Source: Candidatus Gastranaerophilales bacterium
GTDB lineage: Bacteria; Cyanobacteriota; Vampirovibrionia; Gastranaerophilales; Gastranaerophilaceae
Direction of reading: 5' to 3'
Assembly: GCA_947594025.1 (NCBI GenBank)
Contig: CANQDZ010000001.1
Span: 1-64,000 of the forward strand
DNA: 64,000 bases
The notes beneath the pieces were generated by a model that was not told the origin of the DNA, searched no databases, and worked only from the letters and a program-made list of their open reading frames with translations. Shown piece after piece: positions 32,955 through 45,201 of this stretch. Position 1 is the stretch's first letter. Every line of letters starts with the position of its first letter. Made by a program: the position numbers and the translations under genes.

Positions 32955-33776
32955 ATGGAGACAAATAAGGACGTAAATTTATATTCTAAAGTGCGCAGGT
33001 TATCTGATGATGAGATAGCAAAACTTTGGGATGAATATTTTAAGACTAAGGATAAAACCTTAAGGGATAAACTTATAATTCAATATCTCCATCTTATTCG
33101 CTACGTTATAAGCAGAATAAAGATAAGCCTTCCCCCGACATATAACTATGATGATATTATGGGGTTTGGAACAGAGGGCTTAATTGACGCTATTGAAAAA
33201 TTTGCAACGGGCAGAGGCGCCAAGTTTGAAACGTATGCAATTATGAGAATAAGGGGTTCTATTATTGATAAGATACGTTCTCAAGATTTTCTCCCGAGAA
33301 CGGTAAGACAAAAAATTAAAAACCTGAAAACAATAATTGAAGAATTCAAACAAAAAAACGGAAGAAACCCGAGCAACAACGAATTATCTATTATAACAGG
33401 CATTGAACCGGATAAAATAAACGAAATAATGACAAGCGACGTGGGCTTTGAATCGTTATACGCGACAAAAAATATAGGGGACGGCAGCATTGAAATCATT
33501 GATACCATTGAAGATGAAAAAAATATCCGCCCCGATGAAGAAGCAGAAAAAAATGACTCAAAAAGAGAACTTGAAAGAGCACTAAAAAAACTTCCCGAAA
33601 GAGAAAGAAATCTTTTAATTCTTTACTATCATGAAAACATGACATTTAAACAAATAGGTCAGTTTGTAAATGTTTCAGAATCAAGAGCATGCCAGCTCCA
33701 CGCCCAGGCCATTATGAAATTGAGAAATATTCTAAGCGCAAAAAGAAGCGAAAGAATGAGCAAAGCTATTATTTAA
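32955..33776 (+). CDS. FliA/WhiG-type sigma factor (sigma-28 family), 273 aa
   Basis: This is an alternative sigma factor. Region 2 contains YDDIMGFGTEGLIDAIEKF and AKFETYAIMRIRGSIIDKIR, which is diagnostic for the FliA/WhiG/SigD group. Region 3 is PRTVRQKIKNLKTIIEEF. Region 4 has ERNLLILYYHENMTFKQIG and VSESRACQLHAQAIMKLR. Family members direct flagellar, sporulation or other late genes. No flagellar or anti-sigma (FlgM) gene is nearby. Two other genes in this window have good FliA-type promoters. No strong ribosome site precedes the ATG. Confidence 0.92.
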   Translation: METNKDVNLYSKVRRLSDDEIAKLWDEYFKTKDKTLRDKLIIQYLHLIRYVISRIKISLPPTYNYDDIMGFGTEGLIDAIEKFATGRGAKFETYAIMRIRGSIIDKIRSQDFLPRTVRQKIKNLKTIIEEFKQKNGRNPSNNELSIITGIEPDKINEIMTSDVGFESLYATKNIGDGSIEIIDTIEDEKNIRPDEEAEKNDSKRELERALKKLPERERNLLILYYHENMTFKQIGQFVNVSESRACQLHAQAIMKLRNILSAKRSERMSKAII

Positions 33777-34150
33777 GCTTTGTTGTATTTAATTCTTTTT
33801 AAAGGTATGTTTTCTTCAACCCAAATTTGTGTTGTTTCGTCAAAATTATTTTGATAAATAACTTCTTTTTTCTGAATTGCATAGCCAATATCGCTTATAT
33901 CTATTTTTTCCAGTTTTTCGATGTAATATTCTTCTCCGCCGCAATTTTGACAAAAGTTTGTCACAGGCTCTATATCTTGTAAAGTAATCTTACTCTCTCT
34001 TTTAATGCCGCAGTGTGCGCATCTTACAACGTAATAATATTTTTTGAGATACGCTCCGCAATGGGGGCAATACCCCTCATGGCTGTGCTCCAGAGCGCCT
34101 TCATGAGTGCATTTGCGTTTAAATAAAACAAGTAAAGATGATAAATCCAT
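33773..34150 (-). CDS. Zinc-ribbon protein, 125 aa
   Basis: Three CxxC-type pairs are present: CPHCGAYL, CAHCGIKRES and CQNCGGEEYY, and an additional Cys-His pair KCTHEGALEHSHEGY lies near the N-terminus. The second half ends in a predicted beta segment (QIWVEENIPLKRIKYNKA). It is probably a small nucleic-acid- or protein-binding zinc protein. It converges with the sigma factor gene (4-nt overlap of the stops) and diverges from the pyr leader. I do not recognise the family. Confidence 0.78.
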   Translation of the reverse strand: MDLSSLLVLFKRKCTHEGALEHSHEGYCPHCGAYLKKYYYVVRCAHCGIKRESKITLQDIEPVTNFCQNCGGEEYYIEKLEKIDISDIGYAIQKKEVIYQNNFDETTQIWVEENIPLKRIKYNKA

Positions 34151-34212
34151 ATCTTTTTTTTAATTCTTTTTTTAAAAGAGTCAAAATGTAAATAATTATT
34201 TCAAAATAAATA

Positions 34213-34218
34213 TATATT
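34213..34218 (+). promoter_or_regulatory. Likely -10 box of the pyr operon
   Basis: TATATT is followed by 6 nt and an ATG (34225), the same spacing as at other leaderless starts here. This predicts transcription from about 34225 and a leader of about 110 nt before pyrK. No good -35 is visible. Confidence 0.4.
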
Positions 34219-34224
34219 CTGCCC

Positions 34225-34257
34225 ATGCCTCATTTTTGTTTTAGGATAAGAGTATGA
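34225..34257 (+). CDS. Possible first pyr leader peptide, 10 aa
   Basis: ATG at the predicted transcription start encodes MPHFCFRIRV and then TGA. The TGA overlaps the ATG of the second leader ORF (ATGA). It would be translated without a ribosome site and could deliver a ribosome to the second leader ORF. This is speculative on its own. Confidence 0.3.
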   Translation: MPHFCFRIRV

Positions 34258-34292
34258 GCATAAAAAACAAAAATATTTTTATATATACTTAA
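34254..34292 (+). CDS. pyr operon leader peptide, 12 aa
   Basis: The ORF MSIKNKNIFIYT has a ribosome site (AGGA at 34243-34246) 7 nt upstream. Its last codons run through a U-rich mRNA segment (TATTTTTATATATACTT, 34274-34290), and its stop codon TAA (34290-34292) lies at the base of the terminator hairpin. A ribosome at the stop would cover the left arm of the stem and block termination. This is the arrangement known from the E. coli pyrBI leader. Confidence 0.6.
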   Translation: MSIKNKNIFIYT

Positions 34293-34322
34293 AAACAAAG
34301 GCGTTTTTGCCTTTGTTTTTTT
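34291..34322 (+). terminator. Attenuator terminator in front of pyrK
   Basis: A 12-bp perfect stem AAAAACAAAGGC / GCCTTTGTTTTT (34291-34302 and 34309-34320) has a GTTTTT loop, and the T-run extends to 34322. It ends only 15 nt before the pyrK start. The gene upstream is on the other strand, so the hairpin can only act on a transcript that starts in the 187-nt intergenic region, which means it controls the pyr operon. Confidence 0.85.
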
Positions 34323-34337
34323 ATATGAGGATGTTAA

Positions 34338-35054
34338 GTGAAAAAGCTACACGAAGGAAAAATAATAAATATAGAAAAAGAGTGCAAAGATACTTATAAG
34401 CTGTCTTTTAAAAGTGATTTAAGGGATATTGAAGCGGGACAGTTCCTAAGCATTTTATGTCCTCCCAAAACGCTTAGACGTCCTTTTGGAGTTTATGATT
34501 TCAATGACGGGGTTATCACAATTCTTTTTAGGCTGAGAGGAGATGGAACCAACTATCTTAAAAATTTAAAAATAGGCGATACTATTAATTTTAACGCTCC
34601 CTTAGGTCATGGTTTTATTCAAAAAGATAAGAAAGCTCTTATTGTTGGTGCAGGCATTGGTGCTGCACCATTAATTTATCTGAATAAACAATTAAAAGAA
34701 AAGGGCATTGAAACAAGGCTTATTTCGGGATTTAAGGAAGAAGATGAGGTAATTAAAGGCTCTGATTACAATAAAATCGGAGGCACAATTGTTGATGAAG
34801 TTGAAAAATATATTGATGAATTCAAGCCTGAAGTTATCTATTGCTGCGCTCCTTACATTGTTTTAAAACTTGTGAGCGAAATAGGATTAAAACGCAATAT
34901 TGAAGTTCAGGTCGCAATGGAAAAAATAATGGCATGCGGGATTGGAGTATGCAGAGGTTGTATTATTCAAATTAAAAAGAAAGACAAAATTGAAAACCGC
35001 TCTATATGCGGTGACGGTCCCGTCTTTTACGGATGTGAGGTAGCATGGGAATAG
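34338..35054 (+). CDS. pyrK: Dihydroorotate dehydrogenase electron transfer subunit PyrK
   Basis: This FAD and [2Fe-2S] subunit of the heterotetrameric class 1B dihydroorotate dehydrogenase passes electrons to NAD. The FAD-binding motif RPFGVYDF is near residue 52, the NAD-binding GAGIGAAPLIYL near 105, and the 2Fe-2S ligands are in CGIGVCRGC with the last Cys in FYGCEV. It starts with GTG behind GAGGA. It overlaps pyrD by 10 nt. It is the first gene of an eight-gene UMP operon. Confidence 0.95.
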   Translation: MKKLHEGKIINIEKECKDTYKLSFKSDLRDIEAGQFLSILCPPKTLRRPFGVYDFNDGVITILFRLRGDGTNYLKNLKIGDTINFNAPLGHGFIQKDKKALIVGAGIGAAPLIYLNKQLKEKGIETRLISGFKEEDEVIKGSDYNKIGGTIVDEVEKYIDEFKPEVIYCCAPYIVLKLVSEIGLKRNIEVQVAMEKIMACGIGVCRGCIIQIKKKDKIENRSICGDGPVFYGCEVAWE

Positions 35055-35962
35055 ATTTAAGCGTAAATTTTAATAAGATTAAACTCAAAAACCCTATTCT
35101 TACAGCCTCAGGAACATACGGCTATAATACGGAATTTGATGATTTTATAGATATAAACAAATTGGGCGGAATTGTAACGAAGGCAATAAGCCTAAAACCA
35201 AGACTCGGAAACGAAGGGGACAGGCTCTTTGAAACGGAATGCGGACTTATAAACAGAATAGGGCTTGAAAATGTCGGAATTGAAAAGTTTTTAGAGGTCA
35301 AAAAGCCGGTTCTTGATGAAAATAATATTTTTTACATTTTAAATATCGCAGGCAATTCATTTGACGAATATTTTAAACTCGCACATATATGTGAAAAAGA
35401 AAATATCAAAGCTATTGAAATCAATGTTTCCTGTCCTAACGTAAAATCAGGCTGTCTTGAATTTGGAACAGACCCCAAAACGCTTTATAAACTTGTAAAA
35501 GGCATCAGAAAAAGATACAAAAGCTTTTTAATTATAAAATTGACCCCTAATGTATCTGATATTGAAAGTCTGGCTCTTGCCGTTCAAAAGGGGGGAGCAG
35601 ATGCAATTTCCGCAATAAATACGGTTAAGGGGCTCGGGGTTAAGCTTGATTATATAAATAATAAATTTACAAAAAGCTTTGTTCAAGGCGGTTTGAGCGG
35701 AAAATGTATAAAGCCTGTCGCCTTATCTATGGTAAAAAGAATAAAAGAGGCTGTCACAATTCCGGTTATTGGAATAGGCGGAATTTCAAATTATAAAGAT
35801 GTTCTTGAATTTATGTGCGTCGGAGCGGATGCGGTTCAAATAGGAACAGAAAACTTCACCAATCCAAATGTCACGGAAATTATTCTGAAAGATTTAGAAA
35901 ATTTTATGAGGGAAAACAATTTTGAAACACTTGAGGACTTAAAAAGGAGTTTAAGATTATGA
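35045..35962 (+). CDS. pyrD: Dihydroorotate dehydrogenase catalytic subunit (class 1B)
   Basis: This FMN enzyme oxidises dihydroorotate to orotate. The N-terminal NPILTASGTYGYN and the catalytic-cysteine region INVSCPNVKSGCLEFG mark class 1B, in agreement with the adjacent pyrK. The FMN-phosphate motif IPVIGIGGISNYKD is near the C-terminus. The 305-aa length is normal. It overlaps both neighbours, so translation is coupled. Confidence 0.97.
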   Translation: MGIDLSVNFNKIKLKNPILTASGTYGYNTEFDDFIDINKLGGIVTKAISLKPRLGNEGDRLFETECGLINRIGLENVGIEKFLEVKKPVLDENNIFYILNIAGNSFDEYFKLAHICEKENIKAIEINVSCPNVKSGCLEFGTDPKTLYKLVKGIRKRYKSFLIIKLTPNVSDIESLALAVQKGGADAISAINTVKGLGVKLDYINNKFTKSFVQGGLSGKCIKPVALSMVKRIKEAVTIPVIGIGGISNYKDVLEFMCVGADAVQIGTENFTNPNVTEIILKDLENFMRENNFETLEDLKRSLRL

Positions 35963-36522
35963 ATAAAACAGTTGAACTTTTAAGAAAATATGATGCACTT
36001 TTGACGGGACATTTTTGTCTTACATCGGGACTTCACTCTGATACGTATTTTCAATGTGCAAAGTTATACCAATATCCGAATGTTGTGGAAAAACTTGCAA
36101 AAGAACTTGCAAAAAAGCTAAAGGGTATTGAATTTGATACAATAATTGCCCCTGCAATCGGAGCGGTAATTTTTGGTTATGAGGTTGCAAAGCAAACGGG
36201 CAAAAGAAATTTATTTGTTGAAAGAAAAGACGACAAAATGCAGTTGAGGAGAGGTTACACCCTAAAAAAAGGTGAGCGCGTTGTAATTATTGAAGATGTT
36301 ATTACAACTGCAAGAACAATTTATGAAACACAAGATGCAATAAAAGACTTTGGACCTGAAGTGGTTGCCGTTGGCTGCATTGTAGACAGAACTCAAGGCA
36401 AAACGGGTCTTAAAATAAATTCCGTAATTCAGGCAGACCCCGTTTTGTATAACCCTGATAATTGCCCCCTTTGCAAACAGGGAATTGAAGTTGTAAAACC
36501 CGGTTCAAGGGTCGGTAAGTAG
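35959..36522 (+). CDS. pyrE: Orotate phosphoribosyltransferase
   Basis: This enzyme joins orotate and PRPP to give OMP. The PRPP-binding motif VVIIEDVITTARTIYE is clear. LTSGLHSDTYFQCAKLY near the N-terminus binds orotate. A C-terminal CPLCKQG pair is present, as in many members of this branch. It has 187 aa. The ATG overlaps the pyrD stop by 4 nt. Confidence 0.96.
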   Translation: MNKTVELLRKYDALLTGHFCLTSGLHSDTYFQCAKLYQYPNVVEKLAKELAKKLKGIEFDTIIAPAIGAVIFGYEVAKQTGKRNLFVERKDDKMQLRRGYTLKKGERVVIIEDVITTARTIYETQDAIKDFGPEVVAVGCIVDRTQGKTGLKINSVIQADPVLYNPDNCPLCKQGIEVVKPGSRVGK

Positions 36523-36524
36523 AT

Positions 36525-37397
36525 ATGGAAAATTTAATCTCAATTAAAAATTTAACAAACGAAGACATTCTAAAAATTATGAGAATGGCAGACGGATTTG
36601 AAAAAAAGAAAATAAAATCATCCGTTAAAGATAAAAATGTCTGCATGATGTTTTTTGAAAATTCTACAAGGACAAGATTTTCTTTTGAAATGGCGGCTCA
36701 TAATTTAGGTCTTAGAGTTTTTAATTTTGACACTCAGAAAACCTCTTTATCTAAAGGTGAAAGCCTGTTTGACACAATTCAAAACTTATCTTCAATAGGA
36801 ATAAATTGTTGTGTTGTAAGAAGCAAAGAAAGTATCATCACAAGCCTTTTAGATACTAATATGAGGTTTATAAACGCAGGTGAAGGAACAATTTCTCACC
36901 CGACTCAGGCTCTTTTGGACTTTTATACAATTCAAAAGCATTTTGACGATTTAACGGATAAAAAAGTTGTGATTGTGGGAGATATCAAACATTCAAGAGT
37001 TGCAAAGTCAAATGCGGAGCTTTTATCAAGATTTGGCGCAGATATAGTGCTTGCGGCACCCGATTATTTTCAAGATAATTCAATTAAAAATGTAAGATAC
37101 AGTGAAAATTTAAATGAAGAACTAAAAGACGCCGATATCACAATGGGGCTGAGAATACAAAAGGAAAGAATTGAAGAAAACATAAAATTTGATGATTACA
37201 TTAAAAACTTTCAAATAAATTCTTCAAATATCAATAAAAATACTTTATTAATGCACCCGGGTCCCGTAAACAGAGATGTTGAGCTATCAAGCGAACTTGT
37301 CAATTCAAGTATGGGCTCTGTCATACTGGAGCAGGCGAAAAACGGAGTATATATCAGAATGGCGGTTTTAGATATGATTATCGGGGGCAAAAGATGA
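36525..37397 (+). CDS. pyrB: Aspartate carbamoyltransferase catalytic chain
   Basis: This enzyme forms carbamoyl aspartate. The carbamoyl-phosphate motif FFENSTRTRFSFEMA is at residues 44-58. The catalytic HPTQALLDFYTI and the MHPGPVNRDVE loop are present. At 290 aa it is slightly short but complete. No pyrI regulatory chain is nearby, so feedback control by PyrI seems absent. It starts 2 nt after pyrE. Confidence 0.96.
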   Translation: MENLISIKNLTNEDILKIMRMADGFEKKKIKSSVKDKNVCMMFFENSTRTRFSFEMAAHNLGLRVFNFDTQKTSLSKGESLFDTIQNLSSIGINCCVVRSKESIITSLLDTNMRFINAGEGTISHPTQALLDFYTIQKHFDDLTDKKVVIVGDIKHSRVAKSNAELLSRFGADIVLAAPDYFQDNSIKNVRYSENLNEELKDADITMGLRIQKERIEENIKFDDYIKNFQINSSNINKNTLLMHPGPVNRDVELSSELVNSSMGSVILEQAKNGVYIRMAVLDMIIGGKR

Positions 37398-38374
37398 AAA
37401 TAGTTGAAATTCCTGCTCTTATTGATATGCATGTCCATTTTAGAGAACCCGGATTTACGGAAAAAGAAACAATATTATCGGGCTTAAAATCAGCCCGTGC
37501 AGGAGGCTTTGGCTGTGTTTGCACAATGCCTAACACAAAACCCGTCGCAGATAATGTTGAAACGTTAAGATACATTTTGGACGAGGCTAAAAAATATCCC
37601 TATGTTACAATTTATCCCATTTGTGCGGTTACTAAAAATTTAAATTCCAAAGTTCTTGTTAATTTTAAAGAGCTTAAAAATAACGGTGCAGTTGCTTTTT
37701 CAAATGACGGTTTGCCGATTTTAGATAAAAAGGTTTTCAAATCAGCGCTTGAATCAGGGGAACTTATAATTTCTCACCTTGAGGATGAAGCGTCTGAAGC
37801 TAAGTGGCAAATTGAAATATATAAACAGGTGCTTGAAGAAAAAAAAGTTTTGCCAAAACTCCATTTTGCACACATTTCAAAAAAAAGAACTCTTGATTTA
37901 ATACGAAAAGAAAAACCGAATTGTCCGACACTCACGGTTGAAACCTGTCCTCATTATTTTACCTTTACAAAAGATAATGTTAAGAACAACGGAATTTATA
38001 AAATGAACCCTGCACTCGGAGATGAGGAAGATAAAGAGGCGGTTATTGAAGCAATTTTAGACGATACCATAGATGTTATATCAACCGACCATGCCCCCCA
38101 TACAATTGAGGAAAAACTCCTTCCTTACGATAAGGCTCCAAACGGAATAACAGGGCTTGAAACAGCATTTTCACTTGTATATTCGAAATTTGGAATTGAT
38201 ACGGTAATAAAAAAGATGTCAATTATGCCAAAAAAAATTTTAGACATAGAAGATTACAAAAAAGTAAAGGCAGACTTGGATAAGATTTGGGAAGTAAATT
38301 CGAAAGCGTTCAAAACTAAATGCAAAGTATCTCCATATGAAGGGATGATTTTAAAGGGGAAAATAATATGTTAA
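37394..38374 (+). CDS. pyrC: Dihydroorotase, short type I form
   Basis: This zinc amidohydrolase closes carbamoyl aspartate to dihydroorotate. The metal motif DMHVHFREPG begins at residue 11. The bridging Asp motif AFSNDG and the catalytic STDHAPH are present. At 326 aa it lacks most of the N-terminal beta-sandwich domain of the usual 420-430-aa type I enzymes, but the barrel motifs are intact. It overlaps pyrB by 4 nt and pyrF by 7 nt. Confidence 0.94.
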   Translation: MKIVEIPALIDMHVHFREPGFTEKETILSGLKSARAGGFGCVCTMPNTKPVADNVETLRYILDEAKKYPYVTIYPICAVTKNLNSKVLVNFKELKNNGAVAFSNDGLPILDKKVFKSALESGELIISHLEDEASEAKWQIEIYKQVLEEKKVLPKLHFAHISKKRTLDLIRKEKPNCPTLTVETCPHYFTFTKDNVKNNGIYKMNPALGDEEDKEAVIEAILDDTIDVISTDHAPHTIEEKLLPYDKAPNGITGLETAFSLVYSKFGIDTVIKKMSIMPKKILDIEDYKKVKADLDKIWEVNSKAFKTKCKVSPYEGMILKGKIIC

Positions 38375-39099
38375 AAGATAACGAAATAAAAGAAAAAATA
38401 TGCTTAGCTCTTGATGTCGAAAATATAGAAAAAGCAAAAAAACTTGTTGAGGACCTTGCACCATACGTCGGAACATTTAAAATCGGACTTCAATTATATT
38501 GTGCCTACGGAAATGAAATTATTGATTATATTAAAGAAAAAAACGGCAATTTCTTTTTGGATGTTAAACTTATGGATATTCCAAATACCGTTAAAAAAGC
38601 AAGTGAAAGCATAGTAAAAAGGGGGGCAAACTTCTTTAACGTTCATGCGCTTGGCGGAATTGAAATGATGAAAGCGGCATTTGAAGGGGCGGCGGAAGCA
38701 GCTTTAAAACTCGGTAAAAAACCGCCCGTAATTCTTGCGGTTACAATGCTTACAAGCATATCTCAAGATGTTTTGGATAATGAACTTAAAATAGATAAAA
38801 ATGTATCGGATTATGCAATTTATCTTGCAAAACTTGCAAAAAAAGCGGGACTTGCGGGAGTTGTTGCTTCCCCTCTTGAAGTTGAAAGAATTAAAAAAGA
38901 AACGGGCAAAGATTTTAAAGTATTATGTCCTGGTATCAGACCTTGCTGGGCAAGCAAAAATGACCAAAAAAGAATTGCAACTCCCAAAGATACCGTTCAA
39001 AAGGGAGCTGATTACATAGTATTGGGGCGCGCGGTTACAAGCGCAGATAATCCTATTGAAGCAATTAAAAAAATATATGATGAATTAAGGGAAATATAA
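38368..39099 (+). CDS. pyrF: Orotidine 5'-phosphate decarboxylase
   Basis: This enzyme performs the last step to UMP. The catalytic Asp-Lys-Asp array is in FFLDVKLMDIPNTV, and KIGLQLY precedes it. The phosphate loop YIVLGRAVTSADNP closes the barrel. It has 243 aa, typical for the short PyrF group. The start overlaps pyrC by 7 nt, and carA follows after 2 nt. Confidence 0.97.
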   Translation: MLKDNEIKEKICLALDVENIEKAKKLVEDLAPYVGTFKIGLQLYCAYGNEIIDYIKEKNGNFFLDVKLMDIPNTVKKASESIVKRGANFFNVHALGGIEMMKAAFEGAAEAALKLGKKPPVILAVTMLTSISQDVLDNELKIDKNVSDYAIYLAKLAKKAGLAGVVASPLEVERIKKETGKDFKVLCPGIRPCWASKNDQKRIATPKDTVQKGADYIVLGRAVTSADNPIEAIKKIYDELREI

Positions 39100-39101
39100 T
39101 A

Positions 39102-40193
39102 ATGGCAACACTATTACTGGAAGACGGAACTATATTAAAAGGAAAAAATTTTGGGGCGGAAGGTACAAAAATTGGTGAAATTGTATTTAACACGTCAATG
39201 AACGGATATCAAGAAACGGTTTCTGACCCGAGCTATGCAAATCAAATAATAACTATGACGTATCCTGAAATCGGAAACTACGGTTTAAATGAAGAAGATT
39301 TTGAATCAAAAAAACCTGAATGTCTCGGTTTTGTTGTTAAAAACTATTGCAAAAACGAATCTCATTATCAAAGCACTAAAAAACTCGGGGAATATTTTAA
39401 AGAAAACGGGGTTATAGCTATTGAGGGAATAGATACAAGAACCCTTACACGCAAAATAAGAGATATGGGAACAATGAAATGCTTAATAACCTCGGAAAAT
39501 TTAAAAGAACACGAGCTTTCCGAAAATTTTGCAAAAATTGCAATGTATAAATTTAACCCTGATGTTGTAAAAACGGTTACCGCAAAAGAAAATTACAAAT
39601 ACAATAATGAGGGCGAAATAAATATTGCTCTTTTGGATTACGGCTGTAAATCAGGAATTATGAAAAACCTTGCAATAAGAGGGTGTAACGTTTCAGTGTT
39701 TAAGGCGGATACAAAAGCGGAAGAAATATTAAACGGCGGATTTGATTGCGTATTTTTATCAAACGGCCCCGGAGACCCGAGCGATTGTCACGATGAAATA
39801 GAAACCATAAAAAATCTTATAGGTAAAATTTCGATTTTTGCAATTTGTCTTGGTTATCAGCTTTTAGGAATAGTTTTAGGCGCAAAAACGTATAAACTTA
39901 AATACGGTCACAGAGGAGGAAACCACCCTGTTATAAACCTTGAAACGAACAAAATTATAATTACATCTCAAAACCACGGGTACGCAATAGATGAAAAAAC
40001 TCTCACGGGACTTATGAGTGCAACTTATAAAAATTTGAATGACGGCACATTGGAAGGTTTTAAGTCTGAAAGATTAAAAATATACGCCGTCCAATTTCAC
40101 CCTGAAGCTGCGGCAGGTCCGACCGATGCAAGCATTATTTTTGACGAATGGGTAGAAATTATGAAAAAGGAGAAAGCAAATGCCAAAAATTAA
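39102..40193 (+). CDS. carA: Carbamoyl-phosphate synthase small chain
   Basis: This is the glutamine amidotransferase subunit of CPSase. The N-terminal domain starts LLLEDGTILKGKNFG. The GATase nucleophile is in FAICLGYQLLG, and the His-Glu pair in QFHPEAAAGP. The usual CLGHQ reads CLGYQ here. It has 363 aa. The carB start lies inside its last codons (14-nt overlap). Confidence 0.96.
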   Translation: MATLLLEDGTILKGKNFGAEGTKIGEIVFNTSMNGYQETVSDPSYANQIITMTYPEIGNYGLNEEDFESKKPECLGFVVKNYCKNESHYQSTKKLGEYFKENGVIAIEGIDTRTLTRKIRDMGTMKCLITSENLKEHELSENFAKIAMYKFNPDVVKTVTAKENYKYNNEGEINIALLDYGCKSGIMKNLAIRGCNVSVFKADTKAEEILNGGFDCVFLSNGPGDPSDCHDEIETIKNLIGKISIFAICLGYQLLGIVLGAKTYKLKYGHRGGNHPVINLETNKIIITSQNHGYAIDEKTLTGLMSATYKNLNDGTLEGFKSERLKIYAVQFHPEAAAGPTDASIIFDEWVEIMKKEKANAKN

Positions 40194-43100
40194 AAATATA
40201 AAAAAAGTTTTAGTTATAGGCTCAGGACCTATCGTTATAGGACAGGCGGCAGAATTTGATTACGCAGGCGTGCAGGCTTGTCTTGCCCTAAAAGAAGAAG
40301 GGATTGAAGTTGTACTTATAAACTCAAATCCCGCAACAATTATGACGGACACGCACATTGCAGACAGGGTATATATAGAACCGTTAAATGCTGAAACTAT
40401 TGAAAGGATAATAGAAAAAGAACGTCCGCATGGTATTATAGTCACCCTTGGGGGACAAACAGCACTAAACTTGGGAGTTGAACTCGATAAAAAAGGAGTG
40501 TTTGAAAAATATAACGTAAAAGTTTTAGGCACAAACATTGAATCTATTAAAAAAGGTGAAGACAGACAGCTTTTCAAGGATTTAATGCAAGAAATAAATG
40601 AACCTATTCCTGAAAGTATGACGGCTTCCAGTCTTGAAGAAGCTCAAATTTTTGCGGATAAAATAGGTTTTCCGATAATTATCCGTCCCGCTTTTACTTT
40701 AGGAGGAACGGGAGGAGGAATTGCAACAAATCAACAAGAATATGAAGAAATAGTTGCAATGGGGCTTTCTCAATCAACGGCAAATCAAGTACTGGTTGAA
40801 AAATCAATTGCAGGTTACAAAGAAATTGAATACGAGGTTATAAGAGATGCAAATGACACCGTTATAACCGTATGCAATATGGAAAATATAGACCCAATCG
40901 GTATTCACACGGGGGACAGTTTTGTTGTTGCGCCAAGCCAAACACTTACAAATAATGAAGTTCAAATGCTTAGAACCTCTGCAATAAAAATTGTTCGTGC
41001 GCTTGGTATTGAAGGCGGATGTAACGTACAAATGGCGCTTGATACAAAATCAAAACAATATTACATAATTGAAGTTAACCCCAGAGTTTCAAGGTCTTCC
41101 GCTCTTGCGTCAAAAGCAACGGGATATCCTATTGCCAAAATCGCAACAAAAATTGCAATAGGGTACAATTTACACGAAATTAAAAATGCTGTTACAGGCA
41201 AAACAGTTGCAGCATTTGAGCCAAGCCTTGATTATGTTGTTGTAAAAATACCAAAATGGCCTTTTGATAAATTTGCAACAGGGGATAGAATGCTCGGCAC
41301 AAAGATGAAAGCGACCGGCGAAGTTATGGCGCTTGGCAGAACTTTTGAAAACAGCTTCAAGAAAGCAATAACTTCTCTTGAGGATAAACATACTGGGCTT
41401 TTACATTATAAATTTGAAGAATACGATGACGAAACTTTAATTCAGGAATGTTCAATTCAAGATGACAGACGTATGTTCAGAGTCGCAGAAGCTCTAAAAA
41501 GAGGGGTGGATGTAAATAAATTACATGAAATTACCAAAATTGATGTGTGGTTTATTTCAAAAATAAAGGATATTGTTGACTTAAGCACATCACTTGAAAA
41601 AGAAGAATTGACCGAGGAATTATACAAAAAAGCAAAAGAATTCGGCTTCCTTGATTCCGAGATACTTTCTGCAACAGGCTTAAAACAAGAGGACCTCGAT
41701 AAATTCAATTATGAATGTTCTTTTAAAACGGTTGATACCTGCGCGGGAGAATTTGAAGCAGCAACACCTTATTTCTATTCAACATACGGCGAAAAATGCG
41801 AAATTGAAGAAATTAAAAAAGACAATAAAAAAGAAAACATTGTGGTTTTAGGCTCAGGTCCAATCAGAATAGGTCAAGGCATTGAGTTTGATTATTGTTC
41901 GGTACATTGTGCGTGGGCAATTAAAGATATGGGGCTTGAGTCAGTTATGATAAATTCAAACCCTGAAACGCTTTCAACGGATTTTAACATCGCAACAAGA
42001 CTTTATTTTGAACCGATGAATATTGAAAATGTGATGAATGTCATCAAAAAAGAAAATCCCAAAGGGGTTATGGTTCAATTTGGCGGACAAACAGCAATTA
42101 ACCTTGCTCCAAAACTTGAAGAACACGGGGTTAAAATTCTGGGTACAAGCCTTCAAAGCATAAATGCCGTTGAAAACAGAAAAGAATTTGAGAAGCTTTT
42201 ATCAGACCTTAAAATTCCACAGCCAAAAGGAAGAGGGGTAAAATCTTCAAAGGAAGCGCTTGAAACCACAAAAGAATTGGGGTATCCGGTTCTCGTCCGC
42301 CCTTCTTACGTTATAGGCGGGCGCGGTATGCAGGTTGTATACAACGATGACGAACTTTTAACCTACATAAATGAAGCATTTAAATTTTCTGACGAACATC
42401 CGGTTTTAATTGACCAGTATTTAGAGGGTCTTGAATGCGAACTTGATGCAATATCAGACGGACGGGATATTTTAATTCCTGCGATATGCGAACATATAGA
42501 GCGTGCGGGAGTTCACTCGGGCGACAGCATGAGCATATATCCGAGCAGAAATATAAGCAGAAAACTGCAAAATGATATGGTTAAATATGCAAAGAAAATT
42601 GCCCGTGCCGTTAAAATACAAGGATTAATGAATATCCAATTCATTATAAAAGATGAAAAAGTATACGTCATTGAAGTTAACCCGAGGGCAAGCAGAACCG
42701 TTCCTATATTCTCTAAAGTAACGGGCATTCCAATGGTTAAAATTGCAACAGAGATTGCTCTCGGTAAAAGCCTGAGGTCTTGCGGATACGGAGTGGGGCT
42801 TTATCCTGCGACAAAGCTTGTGTGCGTTAAAATGCCCATTTTCTCATTCCAAAAGCTAAATAGAATTGACCCTGCACTTGCTCCTGAAATGAAGTCAACA
42901 GGCGAAGTTTTAGGTATAGATTACAGTTATAAAAACGCTCTTTTAAAAGCATTTATTATGGGCGGATATAAATTTGGCGGACACAAACAAAGGGCATTAA
43001 TTTCACTTAATGACCACTACAAAGAGCCCGCTCTTAAAATAGCAAAGAAAGCATTTGCCCTCGGTTATTTCTTTATGGCAACTTGGGGAACGCATAAATT

Positions 43101-43401
43101 CCTTGAAAAAAACGGTGTGCCTTCCAAGATGATTGAAAAGTTTATGATAGATAAACTTCAAAAGAGAATGAAAAACGGAAGATTAAGCTTTGTCTTAAAC
43201 ACGCCTACGACAGGAAAAGATTCACAAAAAAGCGGTTTTCAGATAAGAACAATTGCCGAGATGTATTCTATCCCTTGTTTTACCTCAATAGATACCGCAA
43301 ATGCTTTTTTGAAAGCCGTCAAAACTTATGACAAAGGTGCAAAATTAAATTGCGATGTCGTATCAAACTATCGCAAAAAGAAATTTTTAGGTATATTTTA
43401 A
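40180..43401 (+). CDS. carB: Carbamoyl-phosphate synthase large chain
   Basis: The 1073-aa synthetase subunit is made of two homologous ATP-grasp halves. Each half begins with a VLVIGSGPIVIGQAAEFDYA-like motif (residues 10-29 and again about 557-576) and has RPAFTLGGTGGG or RPSYVIGGRGMQ as its nucleotide loop. The C-terminal 130 residues form the MGS-like allosteric domain, where UMP and other effectors bind in homologues. Full length, no break. Confidence 0.98.
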   Translation: MPKIKNIKKVLVIGSGPIVIGQAAEFDYAGVQACLALKEEGIEVVLINSNPATIMTDTHIADRVYIEPLNAETIERIIEKERPHGIIVTLGGQTALNLGVELDKKGVFEKYNVKVLGTNIESIKKGEDRQLFKDLMQEINEPIPESMTASSLEEAQIFADKIGFPIIIRPAFTLGGTGGGIATNQQEYEEIVAMGLSQSTANQVLVEKSIAGYKEIEYEVIRDANDTVITVCNMENIDPIGIHTGDSFVVAPSQTLTNNEVQMLRTSAIKIVRALGIEGGCNVQMALDTKSKQYYIIEVNPRVSRSSALASKATGYPIAKIATKIAIGYNLHEIKNAVTGKTVAAFEPSLDYVVVKIPKWPFDKFATGDRMLGTKMKATGEVMALGRTFENSFKKAITSLEDKHTGLLHYKFEEYDDETLIQECSIQDDRRMFRVAEALKRGVDVNKLHEITKIDVWFISKIKDIVDLSTSLEKEELTEELYKKAKEFGFLDSEILSATGLKQEDLDKFNYECSFKTVDTCAGEFEAATPYFYSTYGEKCEIEEIKKDNKKENIVVLGSGPIRIGQGIEFDYCSVHCAWAIKDMGLESVMINSNPETLSTDFNIATRLYFEPMNIENVMNVIKKENPKGVMVQFGGQTAINLAPKLEEHGVKILGTSLQSINAVENRKEFEKLLSDLKIPQPKGRGVKSSKEALETTKELGYPVLVRPSYVIGGRGMQVVYNDDELLTYINEAFKFSDEHPVLIDQYLEGLECELDAISDGRDILIPAICEHIERAGVHSGDSMSIYPSRNISRKLQNDMVKYAKKIARAVKIQGLMNIQFIIKDEKVYVIEVNPRASRTVPIFSKVTGIPMVKIATEIALGKSLRSCGYGVGLYPATKLVCVKMPIFSFQKLNRIDPALAPEMKSTGEVLGIDYSYKNALLKAFIMGGYKFGGHKQRALISLNDHYKEPALKIAKKAFALGYFFMATWGTHKFLEKNGVPSKMIEKFMIDKLQKRMKNGRLSFVLNTPTTGKDSQKSGFQIRTIAEMYSIPCFTSIDTANAFLKAVKTYDKGAKLNCDVVSNYRKKKFLGIF

Positions 43402-43408
43402 GCTGTAT

Positions 43409-44329
43409 ATGGCTAAGAGTTTGCAAAATGTAAGTACAACCATAAACCTGACAGGATATAGATTGCTGTTCCTGTTAAGACTTTTGATGCAGGGTGCAAT
43501 CTCAAAAGAGCGCATAATAAAGGAATGCGAAAATAACGAATATATAAGAGAAATTTCTTATGACACCATAAGGCTTGATATTAACACTCTTAAAAATGCA
43601 GGCTTTGATATTACAAACTCAATTATAGACGGCGAATACGTCTATATGCTTAAATCTCATCCTCTTGAAATAAAATTCACAAAAGAGGACATTAAAGTCC
43701 TTAACAGAATAAAGAAGATTGCCATTGAACTTTGGAAGTGGGAAGATATAATTTCACTGTATGAAACGTTGGAAAAAATACTGCAGTTTACGGATAACGA
43801 AGAATATAAAGACTCTGTTTTGAATTTTGGCTATTTTATGAAAATAGATTTTCAAATTCTAAAGGAACTTCACAGGCATTGTCTTCAAAATAACGAAATT
43901 GCCGTCAAATATAATTCGCCTAAAAACGGGAATATGCGTATAAAAATGAGGGCTCTTTGGATTGAGCATGATAAAAACACAAATAAAATGCATCTTTTCG
44001 GACAATTCGAACACTATAACTATATAAGCTACTTGAGAATAGATAAAATAACCAAAATAGAAAAAATTTATTTAAAGCCCTCAATCAAGCCCCTTAAGAA
44101 AGAATACAAAACATACAAAGTCAAAAATACGGCAAATTTTACCCCTTTGTTTAATGAAGAAATTATCGAAGAAACATCGGATTTTATAACGGTTAAAACA
44201 ACCGTAGTGAATGACTTTTCCTATGTTCAAAGAATTTTATCTTTAGGCAAAAACGTGGTTGAAGTTGACAAACATACAAGCGCTCAAATTATGGAAAACC
44301 TCCTAAAAACAAGGGAGGTGTACAAATGA
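43409..44329 (+). CDS. WYL-type transcriptional regulator, first of a tandem pair, 306 aa
   Basis: A winged-helix HTH region (residues 12-75, with EISYDTIRLDINTLKNAGFDI) is followed by a WYL-like domain. In the latter, ALWIEHDKNTNKMHLFGQ and YISYLRIDKITKIEKI replace the usual WYL and RxFRLDRI signatures. WYL proteins often bind nucleotide-type ligands. It starts 7 nt after carB, so it probably belongs to the pyr transcript, and overlaps the next regulator by 4 nt. The pairing of two WYL genes recalls PafB-PafC-like arrangements, but the target is unknown. Confidence 0.78.
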   Translation: MAKSLQNVSTTINLTGYRLLFLLRLLMQGAISKERIIKECENNEYIREISYDTIRLDINTLKNAGFDITNSIIDGEYVYMLKSHPLEIKFTKEDIKVLNRIKKIAIELWKWEDIISLYETLEKILQFTDNEEYKDSVLNFGYFMKIDFQILKELHRHCLQNNEIAVKYNSPKNGNMRIKMRALWIEHDKNTNKMHLFGQFEHYNYISYLRIDKITKIEKIYLKPSIKPLKKEYKTYKVKNTANFTPLFNEEIIEETSDFITVKTTVVNDFSYVQRILSLGKNVVEVDKHTSAQIMENLLKTREVYK

Positions 44330-45201
44330 CAAAAAGAATAATTGAAACAAGCTATCGCATAATCCAAATGTTAAATTTTCTTTTTGAAAAGCCGAGAACT
44401 CTTGAGGAGTTAATGTATCTTTTTGATGTCCAAGAGTGTGCAATTGAAAGAAAAACCATCACAAAATATTTTGCAACTTTGAGAAAATTCGGTTGTGTTA
44501 TCACGAAAGAAAATAATAAATTTGTTTTAAGCCATTCTCCGTTTTTTGTTAACTTTAATAAAGAAGATATCAGAAATCTTAATAACCTTTATTTCTTATC
44601 GAAAGAAGTTTTAGTTAAAAGCCAGCACAAAAAGCTTTCAAACATAATAAGTTTATTGTACGGAAAATCAAATAACCGCATTGTTGAAGATGATACTCAA
44701 AGCTCTTACGGTGTTTTTGGTAAATACAAAGAAAAAATAGAAATGCTGTCAAACTACTTGTATGATGAAGCACCCAAAGTCAGAATTTCATACAATGACG
44801 AAAAAATAATTGCAAAGCTCAGAAACTTTAAATATAAAAGAAAAAATATCTATATAATGGTATTTGATGAAGAAAAAACGGAAAACAGACTTTTGCTTTT
44901 AGATAACATTCTTAATGTTGAAAATTTATCGCAAATCTCATCTAAAATGAATTTTGCAAAACCAACCGTATTCAAATTAAAGGGCAGAATCGCAAAAGGT
45001 TACACAAGTCCTTATGAAGAAGAAACCATAACTTATCTTGATGACGGTTCAATTATCGTTGAAAATAAATATGAAGATAAAAAGATATTAAGACAAAGGC
45101 TTTTAAAATATTTTGATATGTGTGAGATAATAGAACCGGAATCGGAAAGAGAAGAATTTAAAAAGACAATTGATATGTATATAAAAAAATATACGTCATA
45201 A
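44326..45201 (+). CDS. WYL-type transcriptional regulator, second of a tandem pair, 291 aa
   Basis: Its architecture matches the preceding protein: an N-terminal HTH (RTLEELMYLFDV...IERKTITKYFATLRKFG, residues 22-62), a helical linker, and a degenerate WYL domain around NIYIMVFDEEKTENRLLLLD. The C-terminus is strongly charged. The ATGA overlap with the previous gene implies coupled translation and perhaps a heterodimer. The two proteins are distant paralogues rather than copies. Confidence 0.75.
   Translation: MTKRIIETSYRIIQMLNFLFEKPRTLEELMYLFDVQECAIERKTITKYFATLRKFGCVITKENNKFVLSHSPFFVNFNKEDIRNLNNLYFLSKEVLVKSQHKKLSNIISLLYGKSNNRIVEDDTQSSYGVFGKYKEKIEMLSNYLYDEAPKVRISYNDEKIIAKLRNFKYKRKNIYIMVFDEEKTENRLLLLDNILNVENLSQISSKMNFAKPTVFKLKGRIAKGYTSPYEEETITYLDDGSIIVENKYEDKKILRQRLLKYFDMCEIIEPESEREEFKKTIDMYIKKYTS

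Follow-up and report, generated by a model that had tools for sequence, protein, structure and literature searches.

A candidate UTP-sensitive, translation-coupled attenuator before the complete UMP operon of Gastranaerophilales

How is the synthesis of UMP regulated in Candidatus Gastranaerophilales bacterium, a member of the Vampirovibrionia (Melainabacteria) whose genome comprises 1.5 Mb? The stretch of DNA analysed here (64,000 nt at its full length, hereafter the window) contains the operon pyrK-pyrD-pyrE-pyrB-pyrC-pyrF-carA-carB, in which successive genes overlap or are separated by gaps of at most 2 nt; carA and carB were assigned from their own sequences. This confirms a preliminary description of the same DNA, which had reported a complete UMP operon of eight pyr/car genes preceded by a gene of opposite direction. 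The description had also proposed that the gap between the two holds a pyrBI-like attenuator, and the elements that it listed there, in order before pyrK, were all located in the sequence and its fold. The locus is laid out as follows.

33773-34150, minus strand: gene upstream of the gap, divergent (sequence)
34151-34337: gap of 187 nt before pyrK (sequence)
34213-34218, plus strand: TATATT, the -10 candidate of the preliminary description, an alternative promoter (sequence; not conserved in sister species L002)
34242-34247, plus strand: TAGGAT, -10-like, a likelier -10 than TATATT (TAGAAT in the sister species)
34243-34246, plus strand: AGGA, possible Shine-Dalgarno site for the leader ORF (missing from sister species L002)
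34254-34292, plus strand: leader ORF of 12 codons, MSIKNKNIFIYT followed by a stop (sequence; open frame kept across the family)
34290-34292, plus strand: leader stop codon TAA, overlapping the left arm of the terminator (sequence)
34291-34303, plus strand: left arm of the terminator, nearly all purine (fold, family comparison)
34304-34320, plus strand: terminator loop (TTTT) and U-loaded 3' arm (34308-34320), the proposed UTP-sensing stretch (comparison)
34316-34322, plus strand: U-tract and termination point, the T-run ending at 34322 (sequence)
34338, plus strand: start codon GTG of pyrK (sequence)
34338-43401, plus strand: pyrK to carB, the operon under control

Two similar genes of ~300 aa each lie on the operon strand at 43409-45201 of the window, the first beginning 7 nt past carB. 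Their sequences resemble regulators of the HTH/WYL type, and co-transcription with the UMP operon is possible.

Is the leader of the operon a regulatory device, or a terminator with an ORF placed before it by accident? The terminator itself is well above chance. Its stem comprises 12 bp, or 13 when one G-U pair is counted (34291-34303 with 34308-34320), and a fold of 156 nt gave a z of -4.74, with 0 of 200 shuffles as good. An ORF of 12 codons is expected by chance in a single AT-rich sequence, and relatives are therefore needed to judge its significance. This chance expectation is also what speaks for a constitutive partial terminator that merely lowers the expression of the operon, the ORF being incidental.

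Searches for PyrK covered 59 relatives and 383 family members, and ~130 distinct pyrK upstream regions were read in the sense orientation. A single-protein PyrK scan of genome contigs gave no match; a CarB scan did match relatives, and pyrK was present in 53 of the 64 loci fetched around carB. All ~118 untruncated regions of families f1, f6 and f7, which are the family of the window and two sister families and span ~20 genera, carry a promoter-like stretch and a short ORF whose end lies at the foot of a terminator. Most of these leaders (113) were found by script and the remainder by eye, owing to long inserts, a short T-tract or a shifted match start. The architecture of leader ORF and terminator was seen in 0 of 10 pyrK upstream regions from families f2, f3 and f4 of the order. 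The preliminary description had staked its reading on the conservation of leader ORF and hairpin among relatives, and both are kept in f1, f6 and f7. Leader sequence is not conserved between genera.

The region between leader and operon varies in some species. In genus g57 (L098, L102, L103, L111, L112, L114, L118, L124 and L131), repeat arrays lie between the leader terminator and pyrK; the insert is a dispersed GC-richer repeat (beginning GCGTAGGGTGAAATCGAGCGAAGCGAGTGAACCCGAAG) placed exactly there in many species. Different inserts follow the leader terminator in L134 and L137, and in leader L104 just four T follow the stem. PyrK is missing from 258 of the 383 family f1 genomes searched, about two thirds (e.g. 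G002, G003, G005 and G006). Among 21 genomes without PyrK, the 18 of family f1 also gave no convincing PyrB or PyrE, which suggests that these genomes have lost the entire pyrimidine pathway.

In 102 of 113 leaders, the frame set by the start codon runs open to the hairpin, which means that it ends at most 28 nt short of the loop or continues further. Shuffles confined to the sequence from start codon to hairpin gave a mean of 39.6 and a maximum of 52 of 113 over 300 trials. Since sequences of the same genus are related and raw counts overstate independence, the safer figure is that for one leader per genus, which is 17.7 of 21 against 7.0 in shuffles. A control in the +1 frame is biased because ATGA contains TGA, and the shuffles therefore served as the main control. 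The median length of the leader ORF is 12 codons. Measured from the stem foot, the stop codon starts between -14 and +16 nt in 107 of 113 leaders, a distribution that leans towards the model because the hairpin-reaching ORF was favoured where several start codons were possible; the open-frame test is free of that choice. In a few leaders, the ORF ends up to 14 nt ahead of the stem or continues through the terminator. The preliminary description had argued that a ribosome at the stop would cover the left stem arm, and the stop codon does lie within ribosome reach of the stem. A family-wide open frame far above shuffles, with start, length and stop position maintained despite sequence change, makes a constitutive terminator with an incidental ORF very improbable.

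What is being selected in the leader ORF? Changes between leaders are evenly distributed over codon positions, and the leader frame shows no excess of synonymous change (22%, against 29% and 28% in the other two frames). Selection thus appears to maintain translation over a set length rather than a peptide, and it would be the act of translation that matters. An apparent ending K-I-E-Y-I in one genus, considered as a conserved peptide, was not supported as coding selection. Leaders of genus g21 (e.g. L044, L058, L065, L085 and L193) carry a conserved TGAAGTATGAAA at the stem foot, which places a second ATG at the hairpin foot and provides two of the frames with stop codons, so that a reinitiation or pause site is possible there.

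A short leader ORF ahead of a terminator, in front of a biosynthetic operon, also recalls classical amino-acid attenuation, in which codons for amino acids such as aspartate, glutamine or arginine would govern switching between antiterminator and terminator. The leader comparison found no regulatory codons that were conserved or repeated in the ORFs, and the lack of synonymous excess argues in the same direction. The stop codon of the leader sits on the foot of the stem, whereas attenuators of that class keep it >20 nt from the hairpin (PMC4824070). A competing or alternative hairpin was looked for and none was found, the leader before the right arm being as unstructured as shuffles (median z +0.37); this speaks against an antiterminator or an aptamer of ordinary stability. 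We give amino-acid attenuation almost no credence.

In other bacteria, PyrR leaders commonly precede pyr operons. A leader bound by a protein or ligand, with a PyrR-type site or a pyrimidine riboswitch controlling the terminator, would therefore have been a natural expectation. The preliminary description had noted that the operon contains no pyrR. This is borne out and extends to the relatives, as no PyrR above the cut-off was found in 59 genomes (6 of 14 control genomes passed); the genome of the window has Hpt, Apt and Upp instead. No Rfam family matched at its gathering score, and the weak matches (E 0.05-0.6) fell far below the cut-offs. The leader is also too short, has the terminator as its sole structure and is not conserved in sequence between genera, so that a bound leader is very improbable. 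Genome G011 encodes a PyrR-like phosphoribosyltransferase (C189:256-735) that scored 78 bits, below the 138-bit cut-off, and is the sole genome with an unusual-looking leader (L028, with repeated ATGGGATG).

If translation of the leader controls the terminator, what would be the signal? The base composition of the hairpin points to an answer. The U fraction of the loop and 3' arm is 0.71 in the leader terminators, compared with 0.44 in other terminators from the same genomes (n=190) and 0.43 in a set in which each was read in its U-richer direction (n=139). A U fraction of at least 0.65 was reached by 80% of the leaders and by 3.6% of the 139 controls; the 5 control terminators with such a 3' half were inspected, and none was leader-type. 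Within the inner eight pairs, the U of A-U pairs lies on the 3' side in a ratio of 478:18 in leaders versus 307:207 in controls, an excess present in every genus, and the orientation of G-C pairs is less strict (242:76). In the sequence examined, the leader-type arrangement was found only before the UMP operon. We infer from these comparisons selection for U where the polymerase must pass before the hairpin closes. As the product of the operon, UMP, is the precursor of UTP, a hairpin with a U-loaded 3' half points to UTP as the signal. Alternatively, selection may have favoured a polypurine left arm on other grounds, and the U-loading would simply follow from it.

The preliminary description had placed the sensor elsewhere, in a U-rich stretch within the last leader codons. 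Such a stretch is present in the window (62% U over the 13 nt before the hairpin) but is not conserved, the corresponding tract being only mildly U-rich in the family (mean U 0.41 over genera). The comparison of pyrK upstream regions that the description had suggested recovered the leader ORF and hairpin but not the U-rich run, which was dropped as a conserved sensor and is peculiar to the genome of the window.

A translation-coupled attenuator need not read UTP at all. It might report ribosome supply or growth state, with UTP playing no special part, and the evidence for translation (open frame, no conservation of the peptide, position of the stop) fits that possibility equally well, as does a tract before the hairpin that is not consistently U-rich. 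Such a device leaves two things unexplained: the U-loading of loop and 3' arm, which is seen in every genus and sets these hairpins apart from the other terminators of their genomes, and the restriction of the arrangement to the UMP operon within the sequence examined. We regard it as unlikely. The reading that we consider likely is UTP-sensitive attenuation, in which translation of the leader governs transcription of the complete UMP operon.

The start of the leader mRNA bears on how such an attenuator might work. The TATATT proposed in the preliminary description is present and as a promoter would imply a 5' UTR of ~29 nt, but it is TAGGAT that the sister species conserves. TAGGAT lies exactly 6 nt ahead of the leader ATG, which predicts that the leader mRNA may be leaderless. 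Genera g20 and g55 and part of g21 likewise have a -10 box placed 5-7 nt upstream of the leader start codon, in addition to g1, the genus of the window; two boxes of g20, TTTAAT and TTAAAT, were read by eye. Leaderless leader mRNAs are predicted for g1, g20, g55 and some of g21, and the other genera would use a Shine-Dalgarno site. Purine-rich ribosome sites do precede the leader start codons in most genera.

In a reporter system, placing the stop codon within a few nt of a hairpin has been shown to reduce termination from ~90% to <10%, and the effect of the terminating ribosome on the terminator was gone beyond ~27-30 nt (PMC4824070). The ribosome rarely catches the polymerase in the first 100 bp unless the polymerase pauses (PMC4824070). 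Total leader length is mostly <100 nt, and with the spacing of direct silencing, termination should be the default, relieved only if the polymerase is slowed. In the proposed mechanism, RNA polymerase would initiate at the leader AUG or just upstream, with the hairpin loop ~50 nt past the AUG. When UTP is ample, the polymerase would be through loop and 3' arm, the U-loaded part, sooner than a ribosome can load and cross ~12 codons, so that the hairpin closes and transcription ends. When UTP is low, the polymerase would be slowed within the 3' half of the hairpin, which is ~70% U, and the ribosome would reach the stop codon at the stem foot and mask the A-rich left arm. The hairpin would then not form and pyrK to carB would be transcribed. 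Translation of the leader ORF in the cell, control by read-through and UTP as signal are thus the parts that we infer from the layout. We remain evenly poised on a more specific version, in which UTP sensing arose convergently and is performed by the terminator: U in its loop and 3' arm would delay completion of the hairpin at low UTP, and a ribosome translating the minimal leader of 12 codons (in some genera on a leaderless mRNA with its AUG at +1) would exploit the delay.

To our knowledge, UTP sensing via the coupling of ribosome and polymerase is known only from proteobacterial pyr genes. If the proposal is true, the logic of pyrBI has been built differently in uncultured gut relatives of cyanobacteria, and regulator-free regulation evolves repeatedly. 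The ~118 leaders would then be natural variants of a minimal coupling device (~70-90 nt), with which to test what distance a ribosome has to cover to win the race against RNA polymerase. The signature of a U-loaded terminator with a short ORF ending at its foot is usable to find switches in other phyla.

How does this leader compare with known systems? Transcription attenuation of the complete UMP operon is known from Bacillus subtilis. The two are alike in this extent of control; the B. subtilis system requires PyrR and anti-antiterminator structures, neither of which was found in Gastranaerophilales. In the intercistronic attenuator of E. coli rph-pyrE, a ribosome likewise ends an ORF near a terminator before a pyr gene, but there the full gene rph supplies the leader with its end, and U-loading is absent from the hairpin (GGCGACTGATGAGTCGCC). 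The closest parallel is pyrBI of E. coli, known from the work of Turnbough and co-workers. In pyrBI, tight coupling across the pyrL leader peptide prevents the terminator (PMC5021804). Shared with pyrBI are a leader ORF translated towards and reaching an intrinsic terminator directly before the first pyrimidine gene, the absence of a repressor protein and of an antiterminator, ribosome position rather than the peptide as the deciding element, and low UTP as the likely signal. The construction differs. pyrL has 44 codons and passes through the terminator, whereas the Gastranaerophilales ORF has ~12 codons and ends at the stem foot. pyrBI has a U-rich pause tract (GTTTTTCTTCCCGTTG) upstream of a GC-rich hairpin (AGCCCCTCAATCGAGGGGCT), whereas in Gastranaerophilales the upstream tract is not conserved and the U-load lies within the 3' half of the hairpin itself. 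Some Gastranaerophilales leaders also look leaderless, and all eight UMP genes would be controlled. The preliminary description knew of no such control in this lineage, and the open-access literature indeed gave no account of pyr regulation there. With the same logic, a different construction and no evident sequence relation, the putative attenuator is classed as pyrBI-like in its working and not by descent. To conclude, the conserved layout appears to be a genuine equivalent of the pyrBI attenuator that has not been described before, and the two are probably convergent.
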